In this document: positions 2,328 to 28,489 of the stretch, in pieces
Numbering within the stretch: position 1 is the first letter of the stretch
Layout of the letters: each line of letters begins with the position of its first letter
Virus record (IMG/VR): IMGVR_UViG_3300009159_000171
Location: 1-34,655 of that record
Source: a virus
Length of the DNA stretch: 34,655 bases
Direction: 5' to 3' (one strand)
The notes under the pieces: model-generated
What the model was told of the DNA's origin: nothing
The model's database searches: none
What the model saw: the letters and a program-made list of their open reading frames with translations, nothing else
Position numbers and translations under genes: made by a program

Positions 2328-2427
2328 TTTAGGCTCTAAGGCTGCTTACGCCTAATATCTGGGGCGGTAACCTACGATTTTTTGCATAAGTGGTTATAGG
2401 TACCCAAACAACCACAACGACGGCGCC
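2328..2427 (+). other. Intergenic region with promoter-like element
   Basis: One hundred bases between terminase and the next gene. A short inverted repeat TTAGGC (2329-2334) / GCCTAA (2350-2355) lacks a T-run and is at best a weak hairpin. The rest holds the promoter-like element described separately. No obvious ribosome site precedes the ATG at 2428. Confidence 0.5.
2361..2400 (+). promoter_or_regulatory. Phage promoter-like element, copy 1
   Basis: GGGCG at 2362-2366, 19 bases, then ATAAG at 2386-2390, with six T before the second box and TGGTTATAGG after it. The 23 bases 2378-2400 are identical to copy 4 at 21661-21683. It lies 28 bases before the ATG of the 574-residue gene. Spacing fits a -35/-10 promoter read by a bacterial-type polymerase with a special sigma factor; the boxes are not the usual TTGACA/TATAAT. 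Confidence 0.75.
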
Positions 2428-7297: not shown

Positions 7298-7336
7298 AGG
7301 GCGGATGTTGCATTTGTTTTGCATAAGTTAATATAT
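7298..7336 (+). promoter_or_regulatory. Phage promoter-like element, copy 2
   Basis: GGGCG at 7299-7303 and ATAAG at 7323-7327, separated by exactly 19 bases, with TTTT before the second box. The downstream part is AGTTAATATATG rather than TATAGG. The start codon of the next gene (7335) falls about where the transcript would begin. The upstream box overlaps the end of the preceding gene's stop region. Confidence 0.7.
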
Positions 7337-7529
7337 GCAAGACATAATTCGCGAGATACTGAGGCGCGTAGGCGCCGCAAAGATTTTGCTGGAGAGTTCC
7401 GTAGCCTCCGGCACAAACATCCACAGCTTTGAGGCATACCAGCGCCTCGTGGGTAAGAGGGAGGGCCTGTCAGAGACCCTCGACATTATCAATGACATCC
7501 TTACGGAGGATGACGAGAAGGACACATGA
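7335..7529 (+). CDS. Small helical protein, 64 aa, possibly translated from a leaderless transcript
   Basis: Unrecognised. It is an amphipathic helical, mildly acidic protein (MQDIIREILRRVGAAKILLE, SETLDIINDILTEDDEKD). The only in-frame ATG, at 7335, begins 8 bases after the ATAAG box of the upstream promoter-like element. A transcript made from it would have little or no 5' leader, and no ribosome site is available. The end overlaps the GroES-like gene by 4 bases (ATGA at 7526-7529), so the two are likely translationally coupled and this protein may act with capsid folding. That role is inference from context only. Confidence 0.65.
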   Translation: MQDIIREILRRVGAAKILLESSVASGTNIHSFEAYQRLVGKREGLSETLDIINDILTEDDEKDT

Positions 7530-7954
7530 AAGAAAAAATCGAGCCCGATTTGAGGACAGAGGCAGAGGTATTTCCACAGGTTGACCCCGGCGTAGACATT
7601 GTAGGTGACCGGGTTCTGGTGCAACTGCGTAGGACTAAGTCCAAATCGCGCGGGGGCATCGTTCTGGTTCAAGAGACCAAGGACACCGTGAAATACAACG
7701 AGGTCGTTGCGAAGGTAGTTTCAATTGGTCCGCTGGCGTACAAATCGCCAGACACGCTAGAAACGTGGCCCGAGGGCGCGTGGTGCAGCGTTGGGGACCT
7801 CGTCCGCACCATCAAGTGGGGCGGCGACAGGTGGACAGTCGACCTAGACGACGACAACGACCCCGTAGTTTTCATCATTGTAGGCGCCAGAGAAGTGATC
7901 GCGAGGATTCGCAGCTTCGAGGACGCGCGCAAGATGAAATCCTTTGTAGACTAA
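7526..7954 (+). CDS. GroES-like co-chaperonin
   Basis: It resembles the co-chaperonin 10 family, which caps GroEL. At 142 residues it is longer than GroES (about 97). GDRVLVQLRRTKSKSRGGIV (residues about 27-46) matches the opening strand and mobile loop of GroES, where a Gly-Gly-Ile-Val/Leu segment contacts GroEL. NEVVAKVVSIGP follows the strand that leads to the roof. The C-terminal part (DDDNDPVVFIIVGAREVIAR) is like the closing strand that normally reads ILAIVE. Its place just before scaffold and capsid genes suggests it adapts host GroEL to fold the capsid protein, as T4 gp31 does. Overlap ATGA with the upstream gene. Confidence 0.8.
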   Translation: MKEKIEPDLRTEAEVFPQVDPGVDIVGDRVLVQLRRTKSKSRGGIVLVQETKDTVKYNEVVAKVVSIGPLAYKSPDTLETWPEGAWCSVGDLVRTIKWGGDRWTVDLDDDNDPVVFIIVGAREVIARIRSFEDARKMKSFVD

Positions 7955-7974: not shown

Positions 7975-8970
7975 ATGTCCGAAGAAAGTAAAGAAAAAGA
8001 TATAAAGATCAAGGAGCAGGCCGACGGCAGCGTCATCGCCTCGGTGGGCCCTGACGAGAACGCCTTCCCGGAGGATCAGGAGGGTAAGTCGCCCGAGCAC
8101 GACGAGAACGAGGTCAGTCTTGACCGTGGCTCGGAAGACAGCGACGATGGGTCTGGGGATAGCCCGGACGAAAACGACGAGGACCGTGAGGCGATACGTG
8201 AGGCACGGCGTGAGGAGCGGCGACTAAAGAAGGAGCTCTCCAAGCAGCGCGAGGCCTCGTCGAAAAACAAGATCAGCAGCCTCGAGAAGCGTAACGAGGA
8301 GCTGGCTCGGCGGTTAGCGGCCGTGGAGTCCACGGCGGCGTCCTACCAGTTCGCGCAGATAGACAAGGCGATAGAGGACGAGGCGACACGCGTCGAGTAC
8401 GCCAAGATGAAGATGATGCAGGCCGCGCAGGCCGGTAACGCGGAGGAGCAGGTCGAGTACCTCGACCAGCTGCAGGACTCCAAGAACCGGTTGAATCAGG
8501 CGCAGGCCTACAAGAAGCACCAGCTGGAGCAGGTCAAGCGGCCCCCGCAGAATGTCCCGAACACTATCTCGATAGAGGTTCAGCGCAACGCGACGGGGTG
8601 GCTGAAGAACAACAAGTGGTACGATCCGCAGGCGAGGGATACAGACTCAAAGATTGCCAAGGTAGTAGATCAGGAGCTCACGGCCGACGGCTGGGACCCA
8701 TCCGACTCAGAGTACTGGGACGAATTGGACAACAGGCTGTCGGACAGACTTCCACATAGGTACGTTTCACGAGAGGGTAGGACAATGCGCAGAGCTGGCC
8801 CCACGTCGTCTAACAAGTCGGCGAACCCGGGAGTCAAGTCCGCAACGTCAATCACTCTAAGCCGTGAGCGGGTTCAGGCCATCAAGGACGCTGGTTCGTG
8901 GGACGACCCCACCAAGCGTAGCAAGATGATTAAGGCCTACGCCAGCTACGACCGTCAGAACCGTACCTAA
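7975..8970 (+). CDS. Capsid scaffolding protein
   Basis: This is a 331-residue protein with the usual scaffold build. It has a very acidic, disordered N-terminus (residues 1-75, many Asp/Glu). A long charged coiled coil follows at about 75-185 (EARREERRLKKELSKQREAS, SLEKRNEELARRLAAVES, YAKMKMMQAAQAGNAEEQVE). The C-terminus is basic and has KWYDPQARDTDSKIAKVVDQ and ends in SYDRQNRT. The basic end of scaffolds usually binds the capsid protein. It lies after the GroES-like gene and two genes before the decoration and major capsid genes. Function rests on build and position. Confidence 0.8.
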   Translation: MSEESKEKDIKIKEQADGSVIASVGPDENAFPEDQEGKSPEHDENEVSLDRGSEDSDDGSGDSPDENDEDREAIREARREERRLKKELSKQREASSKNKISSLEKRNEELARRLAAVESTAASYQFAQIDKAIEDEATRVEYAKMKMMQAAQAGNAEEQVEYLDQLQDSKNRLNQAQAYKKHQLEQVKRPPQNVPNTISIEVQRNATGWLKNNKWYDPQARDTDSKIAKVVDQELTADGWDPSDSEYWDELDNRLSDRLPHRYVSREGRTMRRAGPTSSNKSANPGVKSATSITLSRERVQAIKDAGSWDDPTKRSKMIKAYASYDRQNRT

Positions 8971-11289: not shown

Positions 11290-11326
11290 AGAAGGGGTTC
11301 CGATTTGTCGGAGCCCCTTTTCTTTT
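11290..11326 (+). terminator. Rho-independent terminator after major capsid gene
   Basis: AAGGGGTTCCGA (11292-11303) pairs with TCGGAGCCCCTT (11308-11319) through 12 pairs including one G-T, around a TTTG loop, and runs into TTCTTTT. It ends the capsid transcript just before the next promoter-like element. Confidence 0.9.
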
Positions 11327-11335
11327 GTGGGTTTT

Positions 11336-11374
11336 AGGGCGAATTTAGCCTAGTTTTTGTATAAGTAGTTATAG
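11336..11374 (+). promoter_or_regulatory. Phage promoter-like element, copy 3
   Basis: GGGCG at 11337-11341, 19 bases, ATAAG at 11361-11365, with TTTTTGT before the box and TAGTTATAGG after it. It starts the transcription unit for the 185-residue protein, immediately after the capsid terminator. Confidence 0.78.
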
Positions 11375-11461
11375 GAAGATTCACCCCACTCAGACGGCCA
11401 ATACTTCCGGGCTCGACGACTTAGTGACTGTTTGGGGCAACCTCTAAGTAAGGAAACCGAC

Positions 11462-12019
11462 ATGTCCAGCACCTTTACCTCCCCCCTGCGCATATTCAAA
11501 CGCAACAACCCCACCAACGACGGCACGATTGCCCCGGATAACACGGGCGCCCTGACCGCCACGCAGGAAGGCTACATCACCAACCCGATCGCGGCCACGA
11601 CCGCGGTGACAACCGTCCTGACCACGGCCGACGTGGGCTCGACGACGGTGACCCCGTACGTCATCCCGGCGGGCTCTAGCATCCATTCGTTTCGACTGTT
11701 CCAGACCGTTGCGGCCGGCGGCCTTGTTGGGGGCGTCATCACCGTTGCCCTCGTGGACAGCGCGGCTGTCACGACCACCATCGGGACGATCACCCCGACA
11801 GCGGCCGGCGGCGTAATCGCTGGTGTGTTTTCGGCCACGGCCGCAGTTGCGGCGCTGGTCAACAACGTGGGCACCTCCGACGTCACCCTGACCTTCACGG
11901 CGGCCACGGTCACGACCCTCACCAGCGGCTCGCTGGGCGGAACCTTTCAGGTGAGCTACACCCCGCGCAACTACGACGGCTCCATCACCGCCTACGGTGC
12001 CGGCCTCACGAACTCATAA
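11462..12019 (+). CDS. Ala/Thr/Val-rich virion protein, 185 aa
   Basis: Unrecognised. The ATG at 11462 is chosen because a ribosome site (AAGTAAGGAAA) lies just before it; an upstream TTG at 11432 lacks support. The N-terminus (SPLRIFKRNNPTNDGTIAPD) looks like an exposed arm. The rest is repetitive Ala/Thr/Val/Gly with a beta-strand pattern and ends in GTFQVSYTPRNYDGSITAYG. It has a promoter-like element upstream and a terminator downstream, so it is a single-gene unit that may be expressed strongly. A head or tail surface protein is likely. Confidence 0.65.
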   Translation: MSSTFTSPLRIFKRNNPTNDGTIAPDNTGALTATQEGYITNPIAATTAVTTVLTTADVGSTTVTPYVIPAGSSIHSFRLFQTVAAGGLVGGVITVALVDSAAVTTTIGTITPTAAGGVIAGVFSATAAVAALVNNVGTSDVTLTFTAATVTTLTSGSLGGTFQVSYTPRNYDGSITAYGAGLTNS

Positions 12020-15607: not shown

Positions 15608-17380
15608 ATGGCAATCCACGGCTTCCCTGCCGGTTTTAAACTAGCCGCGCAGTACACGGTTACTTCATTCACCTCGTCAACGACTTGGACGGCTCCTCTT
15701 GGCGTTACGCAGGTGGAGTACCTTGTTGTAGCGGGTGGTGGTGGTGGTGGCTCTTCTAGCGGCGGCGGTGGTGGTGCGGGTGGATTTAGAGCCGCTACGG
15801 GTTTATCTGTCACAGCAGGAACTTCATATACAGTAACCGTAGGTGCTGGTGGTGTGGGTGGTTTAGGTACTTCTGTTAGGGGTACAAACGGCAATGACTC
15901 CGTATTCTCCTCTATTACTTCAGCAGGTGGCGGTGGTGGTGGATCAGGGCAAACTGCTCCAAGTGCGCCATCAAATCCGGGTTTAGCTGGAGGTTCTGGT
16001 GGCGGTGGTGGCGGTAACGTAAATACTACATCTGCTGGTGGAGCAGCTTCTCCTGCTGGTCAAGGTAATGCTGGTGGGTCAAGCTATGGCGGCGGCGGTG
16101 TTTATGGGCCGGGAGGTGGGGGCGGCGCAGGATCAGTCGGTCAAGATGGAACAACAAGTATTGCAGGGCAAGGTGGTAACGGTTCATTATCGAGCATCTC
16201 AGGGTCTAGCACATCGTATTCTGGTGGTGGTGGGGCTGGATCGGGTAACGGTGGTTCTCCGGGTACTGGCGGGACATACCCATCGGCGAGTGGCTTAATA
16301 GGTGGCGCTGGTAATGGAGGCAACAACGTAGCTGGAACAGCGGGGACGGCTAACACAGGTGGCGGTGGCGGTGCAAGTGGAAATTCTGCTGTTGGAGGTA
16401 CGGGTGGTTCAGGCATCGTAATCATTAAATACATTACACCTTTGCCTTTTGGCTCTACGTCTAGCGCACCCGGAATCTGGACACTCATCTCCCAGCTTGT
16501 CTATCAGGCGGCTAGTAGTTGGCCCTCTCCCCCTCTTACTGCCATCGAGTACCTAGTTGTCGCCGGTGGCGGTGGCGGCGGTGGGCAGTTCTACGGTGGC
16601 GGCGGCGGTGCGGGTGGATACAGAACGGCAACAGATTACGCTATAACCCTTGGCACTGCCTACACAGTCACAGTTGGTAACGGTGGCGCTGGTGGGTATG
16701 CCTACGCTGTTGGTGTAAGTGGCGGCGTATCTAGCTGGAACACAAGTGCTGCGGGTGGCGGGGCAAAGATAGAATCCGCTGGCGGCGGGGGTGGGGCTTC
16801 TTACCAACAAGCTGATGGAAGCCCTGCTGGTAGCGGGGGGTCTGGCGGTGGAGATAACCCGTTACGAATCTCTAGCCATAGCAGTGGTTTGCCCGGATCA
16901 GGTAATACGCCATCAACTTCTCCAGTACAGGGTTATAACGGGGGGACTAGCTACGCGGTTAGCGGTACAAATAACCCCGGAGGTGGCGGCGGCGCTGGGG
17001 CGGTAGGTATGGCGGGTAATATTTCAGTTGCGGGTGATGGCGGCATAGGTCGCTCCTTTGCTGGTACTTATTACGGCGGCGGCGGCGGCGCTGGGGCGGG
17101 TAGCGGCACTCAAGGTGCTGGCGGTACGGGTGGCGGTGCAAACGGCGTAGCTAGTGGGTCTGGTAACGCGGCAACGGCTAACACGGGTGGCGGTGGCGGT
17201 GGTAGCAACACGGTTTCATACAGCAACCCCACAGGCGGTTCAGGCGGTTCAGGCATAGCGATAGTCCGTTACGCCGATTCCTACCCCGCAGCAACCTCCA
17301 CAACAGGCTCACCATCCATCGTTGTATCTGGCGGCTACAGGACTTACACATGGACTGGCACTGGGAGCATTACATTTTGA
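15608..17380 (+). CDS. Glycine-rich tail adhesin with two tandem modules, 590 aa
   Basis: The protein has two copies of a glycine-rich domain. Each opens with EYLVVAGGGGGG, continues with a GGAGGFR/YRTAT and SYTVTVGAGG-type strand pair, then SVFSSITSAGGGGGG, then polyglycine loops and ends in GSGIVIIKY or GSGIAIVRY. Module 1 spans about 15713-16435 and module 2 about 16544-17270. They are separated by a linker IWTLISQLVYQAASSWPSP. Glycine-rich domains of this kind occur at tips of phage fibres and form layered polyglycine-II sheets with variable loops that bind the receptor. No signal peptide is present. GGT/GGC runs make the DNA prone to recombination or slippage. Confidence 0.78.
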   Translation: MAIHGFPAGFKLAAQYTVTSFTSSTTWTAPLGVTQVEYLVVAGGGGGGSSSGGGGGAGGFRAATGLSVTAGTSYTVTVGAGGVGGLGTSVRGTNGNDSVFSSITSAGGGGGGSGQTAPSAPSNPGLAGGSGGGGGGNVNTTSAGGAASPAGQGNAGGSSYGGGGVYGPGGGGGAGSVGQDGTTSIAGQGGNGSLSSISGSSTSYSGGGGAGSGNGGSPGTGGTYPSASGLIGGAGNGGNNVAGTAGTANTGGGGGASGNSAVGGTGGSGIVIIKYITPLPFGSTSSAPGIWTLISQLVYQAASSWPSPPLTAIEYLVVAGGGGGGGQFYGGGGGAGGYRTATDYAITLGTAYTVTVGNGGAGGYAYAVGVSGGVSSWNTSAAGGGAKIESAGGGGGASYQQADGSPAGSGGSGGGDNPLRISSHSSGLPGSGNTPSTSPVQGYNGGTSYAVSGTNNPGGGGGAGAVGMAGNISVAGDGGIGRSFAGTYYGGGGGAGAGSGTQGAGGTGGGANGVASGSGNAATANTGGGGGGSNTVSYSNPTGGSGGSGIAIVRYADSYPAATSTTGSPSIVVSGGYRTYTWTGTGSITF

Positions 17381-17393
17381 AGGCTGAGACGTA

Positions 17394-19064
17394 ATGGATT
17401 ACATCGGCAAGATCATCACCAAAAGCCCTACCACACCAACTGGCGGGGTATTAGGCGTAGCCAATGGTATCTGGACGCTACAACAACAGGCTGCGTACCA
17501 AGCGGCAAGTCTTTGGCCTGTTCCGGGCTTTCGCATCATCCAGCAATTCACCGCATCAGGATCGTGGACAGCCCCTACGGGAGTTACGCAGGTTGAATAT
17601 CTTGTCGTAGCGGGGGGCGGTGGTGGAGGCGGTACTTTAGCTGGAGGCGGTGGCGCTGGTGGATATAGGACGGCAACGGGGCTGGCGGTTACTCCGGGAA
17701 CCTCATACACCGTAACTGTCGGCGCTGGTGGCGCTAATGGCGTTGGTGGAAACCCCGGCACAAACGGAGGTCAGGGCAACAATTCAGTATTCTCGTCAAT
17801 TACTTCCACAGGCGGCGGCTACGGTGGCGGGTATACGTCCCCCACTAGCCCCCCCGGGGGTAATGGAGGTTCTGGCGGCGGTGGCGCTGGTTCAGATACC
17901 ACAGGCGGTACTGGCGGAACAGGTACATCAGGTCAAGGTTCTGCTGGCGGAAACGGTCGAGGTGGCTCTCCTTACGGCGGTGGCGGCGGTGGCGGCAATA
18001 GCGGTGTTGGCGCAAACGCGGCGGGGAATAATGCAGGTAACGGTGGTACAGCAACTGCTAGTTCAATTAGCGGAACATCCACTTACTATGCTGGCGGCGG
18101 TGGCGGCGGTGTTGGCTATGCGGCAGGTGCTGGTGTTGCGGGTCTTGGAGGTGGTACTGCAACCACGGCGCAAAAGGGCGGCGCATCGAATGGTGCAAGT
18201 GACAACGCCACAGGAACAGCGGCTAATGCAACAGCAAACACTGGCGGCGGTGCTGGCGGTGGCGGTGGCTCTGGCTCAACAAACAACGGCGGAACTGGCG
18301 GTTCAGGTATCGTAATCATCTCCTACATCGCGCCCAGTAAGATGGCGATATTCAACTCCTCGGGTATCTGGACTGCTCCTGCTGGCGTGACGAGCGTGAA
18401 CTATCTTGTTGTTGCGGGTGCAGGTAGCGGCGGAGGTACTACTTCTGGTACAGCATATCCCGGTGGTGGAGGCGGTGCGGGTGGATTTAGGACTGCTACA
18501 GGTCTCTCAGTAACACCCGGAACTTCTTATACGGTTACGGTAGGCGCTGGTGGGGCTGGAGCAGCAGGGAGCGGCACTAGTGGCTCTGATTCTGTTTTTT
18601 CTTCTATTACTTCAACTGGCGGTGGTAGGGGTGGGTTTGAAGGTGGCGATGGAACCGCTGGAGGTTCAGGTGGTGGGGGTAGTTATACTGGCGATATTGG
18701 AGGAGCAGGAACTGCTGGGCAAGGTTTTGCTGGTGGGAATGGAGCAAGTAATTATGGTGGCGGTGGTGGTGGCGCTAGTGCGGTAGGTGCTAATGCGGTT
18801 GGTTCAGTTGCTGGCAATGGTGGTGCGGGTCTTGCAAACAGTCTTTCTGGTTCCTCAGTCACCTATGGCGGGGGCGGAGGCGGTGGCGCTTCTGGTTCTG
18901 GTACTGCTGGTACTGGCGGTGCTGGCGGCGGCGGTGCTGGGGCGGTTAGTGGTGCAGCAACTGCGGGGACTGCAAATACGGGCGGTGGTGGCGGTGGTAC
19001 TGCTCATGCCTATTACAGCGGTGGCGGCGCTGGCGGTTCAGGTATCGTAATAATCACATGGTAA
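17394..19064 (+). CDS. Glycine-rich tail adhesin, paralogue with two modules, 556 aa
   Basis: It is homologous to the preceding gene. A short unique N-terminus (MDYIGKIITKSPTTPTGGVL) leads into the same linker (IWTLQQQAAYQAASLWPVP) and two glycine-rich modules (about 17592-18336 and 18395-19061). The modules share EYLVVAGGG, GLSVTPGTSYTVTVGAGGAG, SVFSSITSTGGG and GGSGIVII. The loops between these landmarks differ in every copy, as expected where they define receptor specificity. The two genes together look like a four-module array made by duplication. Expression probably follows from the upstream fibre genes; no promoter element is seen between them. Confidence 0.78.
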   Translation: MDYIGKIITKSPTTPTGGVLGVANGIWTLQQQAAYQAASLWPVPGFRIIQQFTASGSWTAPTGVTQVEYLVVAGGGGGGGTLAGGGGAGGYRTATGLAVTPGTSYTVTVGAGGANGVGGNPGTNGGQGNNSVFSSITSTGGGYGGGYTSPTSPPGGNGGSGGGGAGSDTTGGTGGTGTSGQGSAGGNGRGGSPYGGGGGGGNSGVGANAAGNNAGNGGTATASSISGTSTYYAGGGGGGVGYAAGAGVAGLGGGTATTAQKGGASNGASDNATGTAANATANTGGGAGGGGGSGSTNNGGTGGSGIVIISYIAPSKMAIFNSSGIWTAPAGVTSVNYLVVAGAGSGGGTTSGTAYPGGGGGAGGFRTATGLSVTPGTSYTVTVGAGGAGAAGSGTSGSDSVFSSITSTGGGRGGFEGGDGTAGGSGGGGSYTGDIGGAGTAGQGFAGGNGASNYGGGGGGASAVGANAVGSVAGNGGAGLANSLSGSSVTYGGGGGGGASGSGTAGTGGAGGGGAGAVSGAATAGTANTGGGGGGTAHAYYSGGGAGGSGIVIITW

Positions 19065-21122: not shown

Positions 21123-21644
21123 GTGCTCAAGCCCGGTCTAACTGTACTCATCATTGGATTTGTGCTGTCCTCGATGTTCATCGGCTCCACGGAACCCGTG
21201 GAGGAGCCACCAACTAGGGCCGGCATACAGCCCACAACCGTAGAGTTCATAACCCGCCTCGAGGGCTTCCGAAACAGCGCCTACAGGGACATACAGGGCA
21301 ACTGGACGATTGGGGTGGGGCACCACATCAGGAAGGGGGAGCGGAGGCTCCTGAGGGCCGTCCTGAGCGACCCCGAGGTGCTCGAGATGTTCCTGTACGA
21401 CTTGGCCAAGTGCGAGCTGGCCATATCGGACGCCCTCTGGGTGCCGTACACCCAGAACCAGTTTGACGCCATGGCCTCCCTGTGCTTCAACATCGGGGAG
21501 GACAGGTTCAAGGGCTCCGAGGTCGTCCGCAGGATGAATCTGGGGGACGAGGCGGGCGCCGGGAGGGCGTTCCTTGGGTGGGTCAAGCCCAAGGCGCTGA
21601 CTAAGCGCCGGCACCGGGAGGTGGCGCTCTTTCTTGCTAAGTAG
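21123..21644 (+). CDS. SAR endolysin, glycoside hydrolase 24 lysozyme
   Basis: It hydrolyses the beta-1,4 bond between N-acetylmuramic acid and N-acetylglucosamine. Residues 6-21 (LTVLIIGFVLSSMFIG) are a weakly hydrophobic, Gly/Ser-rich signal-arrest-release helix. The T4-lysozyme catalytic layout is complete: E47 (RLEGFRNSAYRD), D56 and T62 (GNWTIGVGHH), with E-8-D-5-T spacing as in T4 lysozyme. A GGGAGG ribosome site (21112-21117) supports GTG 21123; the GTG at 21117 overlaps it. Such enzymes enter the membrane through Sec and become active on membrane depolarisation, a Gram-negative phage strategy. The length, 173 residues, fits. Confidence 0.88.
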   Translation: MLKPGLTVLIIGFVLSSMFIGSTEPVEEPPTRAGIQPTTVEFITRLEGFRNSAYRDIQGNWTIGVGHHIRKGERRLLRAVLSDPEVLEMFLYDLAKCELAISDALWVPYTQNQFDAMASLCFNIGEDRFKGSEVVRRMNLGDEAGAGRAFLGWVKPKALTKRRHREVALFLAK

Positions 21645-21683
21645 GGGCGAAAACACCCCGTTTTTTGCATAAGTGGTTATAGG
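21644..21683 (+). promoter_or_regulatory. Phage promoter-like element, copy 4
   Basis: GGGCG at 21645-21649, 19 bases, ATAAG at 21669-21673, with TTTTTT before the box and TGGTTATAGG after. Its 21661-21683 part is identical to copy 1. The upstream box overlaps the lysozyme stop codon. GGGG...CCCC before the T-run might also make a weak terminator hairpin. It starts the unit of the connector genes. Confidence 0.78.
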
Positions 21684-21728: not shown

Positions 21729-22670
21729 ATGAAAGAATTTAACGCTCTTCCGAAGATGAAGTCCGACATTAAGTGCTACAAGGAGGGTGGGGCTGTCTAC
21801 AAGAGCCGCCACAGCGAGACCTCCGAGGGTTCGCAGGACGTGGCTCAGGACAAGAAGATCGTCAAGAAGGCCTTCTCGATGCACGACAAGCAGGAGCACG
21901 AGGGCTCGAAGACAGACCTCTCCAAGCTCCGCCGGGGTGGCCGCGCCAAGAAGGAGAAGGGCACCGTCAGCATGTTCAAGGACGGCGGGATGACCAAGGT
22001 CAAGCCCACGGGCGACAAGAAGGCCTGCGCCCCCTCGGCGGCGATGAAGTTCAAGGACGGCGGGATGGTCAAGGTCAAGCCCACGGGCGACAAGAAGGCC
22101 GACGCCCCCTCCGCGGCGGTGAAGCTCAAGGCCGGCGGGATGACCAAGGTCAAGCCCACGGGCGACAAGAAGGCCGACGCCCCCTCCAAGGCCGCGGTCA
22201 AGGGCAAGGAGACGCCCTCATTCGCCGATGGCGGCAGCATGACCCCCGAGATGATGCAGCAGGTGCAGGACGCACAGCAGCAGCGCGCCTCGAGCGGCGC
22301 CTACGGCAAAGCAATGACCTACCCCGACTCGCAGGACGCCAACAACGGCATGTCCGGCATAGGTGCCATCTCCCCCGCGGAGCGCGCGATCCTCACCAAG
22401 TTGATGGCAAGGAAACGGCTCGGCTCGGGCGCACCCGCCGCGCCCTCCCCCATGACCCCGCAGCGCCCCCCGATGCCGATGCCCCCGTCCTACCCGGGGT
22501 ACGCCGACGGCGGCGCGATCCCCATGGGAGGCATGGGACCCGCGCAGCCCTCCGGCGGCATGGGCGCGGCGGCCACGGGTGTCATACCCCAGCCGGGCAT
22601 GACACCAGCACCCGGCGCGATGCAGCCCCAGCAGCAGGGTCTTATCAGCCCCTACCGCCCCGGGTTTTAA
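21729..22670 (+). CDS. Basic repeat protein with Gly-Gly motifs, probable virion protein, 313 aa
   Basis: No known domain. It contains three tandem 25-residue repeats (residues 83-157) of the form FKDGGMTKVKPTGDKKADAP, which are strongly basic. Short [FYA]xDGG[AMS] segments recur (ADGGSMTPEMMQQ, YADGGAIPMGGM). The C-terminus is Pro/Gly/Met-rich and disordered (PPMPMPPSYPGY). This composition suggests a DNA-binding or ejected virion protein rather than an enzyme. The first gene after promoter copy 4, it precedes the connector genes. The same Gly-Gly signature appears in the 574- and 643-residue proteins. Confidence 0.7.
   Translation: MKEFNALPKMKSDIKCYKEGGAVYKSRHSETSEGSQDVAQDKKIVKKAFSMHDKQEHEGSKTDLSKLRRGGRAKKEKGTVSMFKDGGMTKVKPTGDKKACAPSAAMKFKDGGMVKVKPTGDKKADAPSAAVKLKAGGMTKVKPTGDKKADAPSKAAVKGKETPSFADGGSMTPEMMQQVQDAQQQRASSGAYGKAMTYPDSQDANNGMSGIGAISPAERAILTKLMARKRLGSGAPAAPSPMTPQRPPMPMPPSYPGYADGGAIPMGGMGPAQPSGGMGAAATGVIPQPGMTPAPGAMQPQQQGLISPYRPGF
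21975..22199 (+). repeat. Three tandem 75-bp repeats
   Basis: Copies at 21975-22049, 22050-22124 and 22125-22199, each encoding 25 residues centred on VKPTGDKKADAPS. Copies differ by a few substitutions, and one has Cys where others have Asp. The unit is in frame, so copy number can change without breaking the gene. Confidence 0.92.
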
Positions 22671-27891: not shown

Positions 27892-28139
27892 CGATACGGC
27901 AGGCCATACCATTCCTCCCCGAGGGCATGTCGTGGTCAGATTGGAACGGCAACATGCTGCACTACTTCGGTGAGGAGCCCCTCCCGTACGTGGAGGAGGT
28001 TGACTGGAGGCAGCTGGCGAGCGGGGTGGTTCTGCTCCCGACCTTCGCGGTGTACGGGGGCATAGACCCCGCGCCCTTTGAGGACTGGCGGGAGTGGGCG
28101 AGGCAGTTCATTACCGTCGTAAATGGCGACACACAGTAG
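27888..28139 (+). CDS. Small conserved phage protein, 83 aa
   Basis: Unrecognised. Acidic and Trp/Pro-rich (MSWSDWNGNMLHYFGEEPLP, EDWREWARQFITVVNGDTQ), with a helix near the C-terminus. It starts at GTG 27888, overlapping the nozzle stop by 4 bases. It is the last gene before the promoter that drives the acyl carrier protein. A minor tail or tail-assembly protein is likely from position. Confidence 0.7.
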   Translation: MTIRQAIPFLPEGMSWSDWNGNMLHYFGEEPLPYVEEVDWRQLASGVVLLPTFAVYGGIDPAPFEDWREWARQFITVVNGDTQ

Positions 28140-28177
28140 GGCGGATAACGCTGTTTTTCTGTATAAGTAGATATAGA
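28138..28177 (+). promoter_or_regulatory. Phage promoter-like element, copy 5
   Basis: GGGCG at 28139-28143, 19 bases, ATAAG at 28163-28167, with TTTTTCTGT before the box and TAGATATAGAT after. The upstream box overlaps the stop of the 83-residue gene. It puts the acyl carrier protein first in a transcript that continues into ketosynthase and ejection proteins. Confidence 0.78.
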
Positions 28178-28201: not shown

Positions 28202-28489
28202 ATGGATTTTGTAGAACTTTTTAACCAGATTGCCACCATTGTTAAGACCGGCAAGAGCAGGAAGTGCAATATCTACGCGACGGGGGAGCTGGACAGGCTG
28301 TCCGATTTGGAGCTCGACAGTCTGGATTACATCATGCTTTTTGTTTATCTGGCCGATATATACAACATCCCGGAGCAGATTGCGAAACAGCTAGAGCCCA
28401 AGACAGTCCGGGATATTAAAGATTTTGTAGCACTACACAAGACGCGGGACCCTCAGACAATTGAGGAGGCTATCTCGTATGTCGGATAA
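28202..28489 (+). CDS. Acyl carrier protein
   Basis: A 95-residue protein of ACP length and acidity. LSDLELDSLDYIMLF (residues 33-47) holds the Asp-Ser-Leu motif; Ser40 is the probable site for the 4'-phosphopantetheine arm, added by a host transferase. LADIYNIPEQ continues as in ACP helix III, and TVRDIKDFVALH as helix IV. It would carry acyl chains as thioesters and hand them to the ketosynthase, the next gene. The ATG follows a GAGG site (about 28191). The codon mix is less GC-rich than the genes around it, suggesting later acquisition. ACPs occur rarely in phages; pairing with a ketosynthase is unusual. Confidence 0.88.
   Translation: MDFVELFNQIATIVKTGKSRKCNIYATGELDRLSDLELDSLDYIMLFVYLADIYNIPEQIAKQLEPKTVRDIKDFVALHKTRDPQTIEEAISYVG

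Follow-up and report, generated by a model that had tools for sequence, protein, structure and literature searches.

It is likely that positions 7298–7337 in the genome of an uncultured freshwater phage are a phage late promoter fused to the AUG at 7335, and that the 64-codon gene opened by this AUG (ORF64) has a message that is translated without a leader. The DNA analysed, hereafter the window, is the whole of the IMG/VR virus record IMGVR_UViG_3300009159_000171 (34,655 bases). Its terminase, portal, GroES-like, and capsid genes indicate a tailed phage. In the proposed explanation, the element would belong to a set of late promoters of the phage itself, and the enzyme reading it would most likely be the host RNA polymerase carrying a small phage sigma factor that lacks region 4. 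The RNA would begin at the A of the AUG at 7335, so that start codon and transcription start coincide, and ribosomes recognizing the 5′-terminal AUG, not a Shine-Dalgarno sequence, would translate ORF64. Within this phage group, the AUG fusion recurs on a subset of these putative promoters. The observations behind this reading are the element, its register with the ATG and the recurrence of that register, a protein start common to most homologues, a sigma gene in relatives, and the co-occurrence of that gene with the element; what I infer from them is that this sigma reads the element, that the A is +1, and that a leaderless RNA is translated.

The 40-nt element and the start codon of ORF64

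Five copies of a 40-nt element were found in the window, all on the plus strand (starts 2361, 7298, 11336, 21644, and 28138), with a gene after each. The features are as follows.

2361–2400, plus strand: putative promoter copy 1, preceding the 574-codon gene at 2428; leader of about 30 nt
7298–7337, plus strand: putative promoter copy 2, whose final three bases are the ATG of ORF64
7298–7303, plus strand: upstream (−35-like) block AGGGCG of copy 2, part of the five-copy family
7317–7328, plus strand: −10-like block TTTTGCATAAGT of copy 2 (whole element, 32.7 bits in a leave-one-out matrix)
7335, plus strand: predicted +1, the A of the ORF64 start codon, from the register of nt 7 after ATAAGT/ATTAGT
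7335–7529, plus strand: ORF64, a 64-codon gene of unknown function and leaderless candidate (TGA at 7527–7529)
7526–7954, plus strand: GroES-like gene (Pfam Cpn10, E 7.2e-6; phrog_3188, E 1.8e-9)
11336–11375, plus strand: putative promoter copy 3, 3′ of the major capsid gene and directly behind a terminator-like hairpin (11290–11321)
21644–21683, plus strand: putative promoter copy 4; leader of about 48 nt to the ATG at 21729
28138–28177, plus strand: putative promoter copy 5; leader of about 27 nt to the ATG at 28202

The matrix was trained on the other four copies, and the next-best site after copy 2 on both strands reached 11.9 bits. The ATAAG pentamer by itself is not enriched in the window (21 matches versus 28.3 expected) and was rejected as a stand-alone signal; the significance lies in the 40-nt element. 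Consensus sigma70 promoters in the window were also rejected, as they showed no excess over shuffles. Leader lengths were calculated on the assumption that +1 is the A conserved at position 38 of the element. For copy 3, counting as far as the ATG at 11462 gives a leader of 89 nt; in the mechanical ORF list, this gene starts at a TTG (11432). The computed 30, 89, 48, and 27 nt agree with the 27–90 bases that the earlier note had given for these four copies.

The exact leadered pattern TTTTTGYATAAGTNGNTATAGG occurs in 33 stretches in viral_contigs. It has no match in the genome_contigs collection, and identification of the host via the motif in that collection was therefore rejected. A near-full relative of 61,725 bases (G001), whose listed blocks of more than 1 kb show 83–96% identity to the window, has the five window copies and further ones. 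One extra copy (60778, minus strand) lies upstream, beyond the left edge of the window, and is likewise fused to an ATG.

In copy 2, the ATAAG box at 7323–7327 and the ATG at 7335–7337 are seven bases apart, as the earlier note had described. Its statement that 7335 is the only start codon stands insofar as this is the first start in frame; a TTG exists further inside. The Shine-Dalgarno energy at 7335 is −1.0 kcal/mol, among the three weakest of 25 hand-listed window starts, and weak values were also obtained for other window genes (−2.1 at 2428, −1.0 at 7975, and −0.5 at 15608). In an alignment of ORF64 with 14 relatives (12 from a set of 32 distinct proteins and two from the records L070 and L078), 12 of the 14 start in ORF64's own first column. 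The outliers are L151, which starts three columns further in, and L078, which was shortened by one codon by the analyst. Part of this agreement comes from the reading rule, under which each of the 32 proteins began with the first in-frame ATG; L131 and L152, which belong to the 32 and lie outside the alignment, have a first ATG much later. In the phages collection, the sole match to ORF64 was MW202545.

The ATGA overlap between ORF64 and the GroES-like gene was confirmed (TGA at 7527–7529, ATG at 7526). The idea that leaderless initiation sets the level of the chaperonin found no support, since this coupling is not common to the other leaderless ORF64 clades: no ATGA overlap was seen at the 3′ end of ORF64 in L088, L070, L174, L206, and L212. 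The L012 clade also has the overlap with the GroES-like gene, judging from a reading of the sequence, but a Shine-Dalgarno leader precedes its ORF64. As far as the records show, neither of the other two leaderless gene families is next to the GroES-like gene.

Several other features were noticed in the window and in G001. At 13–2327, a frame with a weak terminase-type match (13–900, E 7e-4) overlaps the 535-codon terminase frame (720–2327) and could represent a distinct domain or gene upstream of it. Two long frames at 15608–19064 have many degenerate glycine-type repeats and are perhaps tail fibre or appendage proteins. Three tandem 75-nt copies lie in a coding frame at 21974–22198, the second having 92% and the third 84% identity with the first. 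A short repeated peptide at the left end of G001 (L066:15-275), at the contig end, is possibly an assembly artefact.

Spacing between the putative promoter and the ATG in related phages

Is the fusion of promoter and start codon peculiar to the window? The loci searched with a pattern of GGGC, a spacer, and GYATWAGT yielded 53 distinct elements, and 50 were counted after three matches had been removed by eye as chance. Starts were called mechanically: whichever ATG or GTG came first with an open frame of 45 codons or more (40 where the frame leaves the piece) was taken, and TTG was ignored. An ATG start lies 6 nt after ATAAGT/ATTAGT in 10 of the 50 elements and 5 nt after it in two; the first called start is at 10–124 nt in 36, and two have none. 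These counts are not independent, because many of the elements are related by descent. The shortest distances among the 36 are 10, 10, 11, 16, and 20 nt, followed by at least 27 nt; the 16-nt case is a doubtful GTG of 46 codons. One of the 12 fused elements (L211) has an additional GTG at 2 nt in a different frame. The Shine-Dalgarno energies of the 12 fused cases are weak (−1.0 to −3.5 kcal/mol).

The close register of 5–6 nt is present on three gene families, the 5-nt form being confined to one clade and the remaining fused elements having 6 nt. Fused ORF64 homologues are found in the window clade, in L088, in L174/L206/L212, and in L070. The last of these, L070/L011, keeps the register behind a −10 box of divergent sequence (GGTATGAGT) and is not counted among the 50. 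The MKR gene, which in G001 lies immediately outside the left edge of the window, is fused at 6 nt in L185, L206, and L212 and at 5 nt in L069 and L075. The fused gene of G042, representing the third family, has 43–44% identity to the gene that overlaps MKR downstream in L185 and L206; thus, the promoter stands on a different gene with the register unchanged. Fusion is not universal, as the ORF64 of G042 is 94 nt from its element. At L206:11577 (minus strand) and L174:2701 (plus strand), an ATG lies 10 nt past the −10 box, which would leave a leader of about 4 nt; by eye, the N-termini of these genes resemble that of the 574-codon gene at 2428, where the leader is about 30 nt.

The bases behind the −10 box suggest where the RNA would start. 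In the 38 leadered or gene-less elements, nt 6 after ATAAGT/ATTAGT is T in 36, nt 7 is A in 37, nt 8 is G in 35, and nt 9 is G in 28. In the ten elements whose ATG follows at 6 nt, nt 6–9 are T, A, T, and G without exception; this class is defined by the ATG itself, and the preceding T is not part of the definition. Leadered copies typically read TATAGG, and leaderless ones have TATG at the equivalent place. Since the T-A step is common to both classes, one base converts AGG to AUG, and the two classes, differing mainly at this base (TAGG versus TATG), seem to be one promoter family. The first RNA base is probably the A of the AUG at 7335. An A at this distance (6 nt past ATAAGT or, counted from YATAAG, 7 nt) is within the usual range of +1, and the −10 hexamer of the element can be read in either frame. 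A −10 box 5–8 nt before the AUG together with a weak or absent Shine-Dalgarno sequence is a criterion for leaderless mRNAs, and this combination is found at 7335. A spacing kept within one base on three genes looks like a selected leaderless start. The leaderless transcript proposed for ORF64 by the earlier note is well supported, at the level of sequence comparison, by the register kept in divergent phages and on three gene families, and the case is much stronger than a single copy would make it.

It was considered whether the promoter is real and ORF64 is nevertheless expressed mainly from read-through RNA of an upstream promoter, the overlap with the ATG being a by-product of gene packing. 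No terminator-like site is listed between the stop of the upstream gene (7296) and the element (7298), so the read-through RNA from copy 1 probably covers ORF64 too. Moreover, many distant relatives have no element, and their ORF64 starts at or within a few bases of the upstream stop (e.g., TAATG). I nevertheless regard this explanation as improbable. Packing leaves the 5–6-nt register on three gene families unexplained, and the weak Shine-Dalgarno energy of ORF64 argues against it. The window AUG is predicted to be paired in the read-through RNA, with an unpaired probability of 0.00 as compared with 0.66 in the leaderless form; with shuffled upstream sequences the mean is 0.37, and 1% of the shuffles are as low. 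Nine loci chosen by the analyst were compared in this way. Marked pairing of the AUG was found in the window, L088, L185, and L212 (1.0–5.0% of shuffles as low) but not in L174, L206, L075, L211, and L070 (18.5–83%). Pairing in the read-through RNA was thus rejected as a general rule, five of the nine loci lacking it.

Hairpins, sigma factor, and polymerase

The AGGGC block occupies the usual position of a −35 box. GGGC, which the pattern for the 50 elements required, is also present in elements without hairpin potential. Among 61 core sites collected from hand-picked loci without demanding GGGC, it is in place in 41 and not in 20. Some of these 20 look like chance matches inside genes and others like a second promoter class. 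Four sites (L187:2046+, L189:2074+, L216:17995+, and L066:16487+) have a TTGYATAAGT core with a hairpin and T run upstream, no spaced GGGC block, and TAC replacing TAGG after the core.

Some elements can form a GGGC...GCCC hairpin whose T run merges into the −10 box, resembling a terminator. Could the element be an RNA-level processing or termination signal, not a promoter? When compared with spacer shuffles, 14 of the 50 elements have folds at least as good as those of 95% of the shuffles, copy 2 passing weakly (−4.3 kcal/mol, fraction 0.043). In the L012 clade, all 10 hairpin pairs are kept among six distinct sequences with four distinct stems (G-U allowed), one pair varying as G-C, G-U, and A-U. 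These points are in favour of an RNA signal. The other 36 elements do not pass, however; 16 fold no better than half of the shuffles, and 10 of these do not fold at all. Copy 3 lies directly behind a separate terminator-like hairpin, and the co-occurrence with a sigma factor described below points to a promoter. An RNA signal in place of a promoter is thus very unlikely. With 14 of 50, the hairpin was rejected as the defining part of the element; it may be an added feature of some elements. In L012–L021, a 10-bp hairpin upstream of the ORF64 homologue is flanked by the AGGGC block and the start region, and one of its pairs has changed on both sides. Being upstream of the expected start, the hairpin of this clade would be present in the read-through RNA only.

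A sigma factor gene was found in G001 (L066:5226-5798), encoding 190 amino acids from a GTG start with no detected region 4. No sigma gene was seen in the window, which is a fragment; the one described here comes from G001. Its relatives are open frames of 181–202 codons with an acidic tail, and they co-occur with the element. In seven of 32 records, positions 465–642 of the profile of sigma family phrog_351 are matched; two of these records, G027 and G037, score equally and probably represent near copies of one another. None of the 24 records of a second set matches these positions. G005 and G061 match phrog_351 solely at the later positions 659–746, presumably region 4. Among 22 records of at least 50 kb, sigma was found in all four that have an element of the TTGYATWAGT type and in none of the 18 without it, a coincidence calculated by hand at 1 in 7,315 if the records were independent, which they are not. 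The element scan accepted only sites near GGGC...TGNATAAGT, so that sites without GGGC would be overlooked.

In an alignment of six sigmas (the G006 row shortened at the N-end by the analyst), Pfam models detected region 1.2 in six, region 2 in six, and region 3 in five, and region 4, which recognizes the −35 box, in none at E 0.01. For the G001 sigma, region 2 is just under the cut-off (23 versus 24 bits) and region 3 is unmatched. The sigma profile matches SigA residues 101–265 (E 9.5e-37), and a structure model of the sigma has a mean pLDDT of 78.2 and a pTM of 0.55. A split sigma with region 4 on a separate protein was rejected; the matches to PF04545 in three of the six sigma-bearing records are weak, below the cut-off, and all positioned within the sigma gene's own matches. 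The elements of the G006 clade have GGGTRAT instead of YATAAG, and its sigma differs in a stretch that I take to be region 2.4; this comparison concerns two clades only. With the G001 sigma alone as a query, the sole match was G001 itself. The phages collection has 71 records with sigma relatives, all below 60% identity; the 25 matches listed are mostly unannotated faecal phage records, and no recognized relative of the window phage group is among these 25. From its co-occurrence with the element, the small phage sigma may be the factor that reads it.

The end of the leadered copies, TATAGG, resembles T7-type promoters. A promoter of a T7-type single-subunit polymerase, with +1 at a G (7336/7337) and the AUG not transcribed whole, is nevertheless considered very improbable and was rejected, as PF00940 was not found in any of the six sigma-bearing records (T7 positive control, E 9.9e-110; an initial search gave 0 of 16 and did not match its positive control) and a sigma factor is present instead.

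Returning to the leaderless late promoter, three features might act together as a gate: an upstream hairpin or pairing that terminates or silences the read-through RNA, a phage-sigma promoter, and an AUG at +1. I offer this only as a speculation that is rather unlikely to hold in full. If it were true, ORF64 and its fellow genes would be translatable only from a short leaderless message once the phage sigma is present, and the choice of the transcription start would be a translation switch.

Known systems and significance

The nearest cultured relatives by portal are phage RW and its kin, whose host is Caulobacter (portal identity 50.6% and 53.0% for Caulobacter phage RW and MW202545). In RW (whole) and MW202545 (bases 9000–57457), the sigma search gave nothing with an E value under 0.88, and no site scored above 9 bits for the element. 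These named relatives were thus rejected as carriers of the element or the sigma, neither being present in the sequence searched. According to the part of the source available, leaderless mRNAs are frequent in Caulobacter crescentus, 375 having been reported (PMC4117421).

The promoter family, with leadered and AUG-fused members, may offer a clean natural test of the circumstances and reasons for losing a leader, and it would link leader loss to a small phage sigma. The AUG-fused register also gives a rule by which gene callers may find true starts in such genomes.

T4 gp55 is a small phage sigma without region 4, and its late promoters have a TATAA-type box. An upstream block comparable to AGGGC is not known from the late promoters of T4, nor are these known to be fused to an AUG. 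The possible likeness to gp55 is that of a phage-coded sigma in which no region 4 was found and which, from its co-occurrence with the element, may read a late promoter; gp55 is more divergent from sigma70 than the sigma found here. The cI promoter of lambda is read by the host sigma70. The lambda cI mRNA is a leaderless phage message starting at the AUG (PMC9031893, as excerpted); it is the case of a single gene, in contrast to a promoter family with a phage sigma here.

In the portion of the source consulted, most middle and late messages of the Thermus phage phiYS40 are leaderless and are translated by the host (PMC3594737). Phage messages without a leader are proposed here likewise; unlike in phiYS40, they would be a subset only, the promoter family would also drive leadered genes, and a phage sigma exists in the relatives. 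In Deinococcus, leaderless mRNA results from a −10 motif situated about 6–7 bp ahead of the start codon (PMC12340547, in the part consulted). A −10 box adjoining the ORF start is the shared trait with ORF64, whereas the Deinococcus boxes are host TANNNT boxes of a cellular genome and, as far as that part of the source goes, operate without a phage sigma. In a literature search covering its sources in part, no paper naming this element or the combination of a leaderless promoter with such a sigma was found. Leaderless phage mRNAs and phage sigmas lacking region 4 are both known, and their combination looks new.
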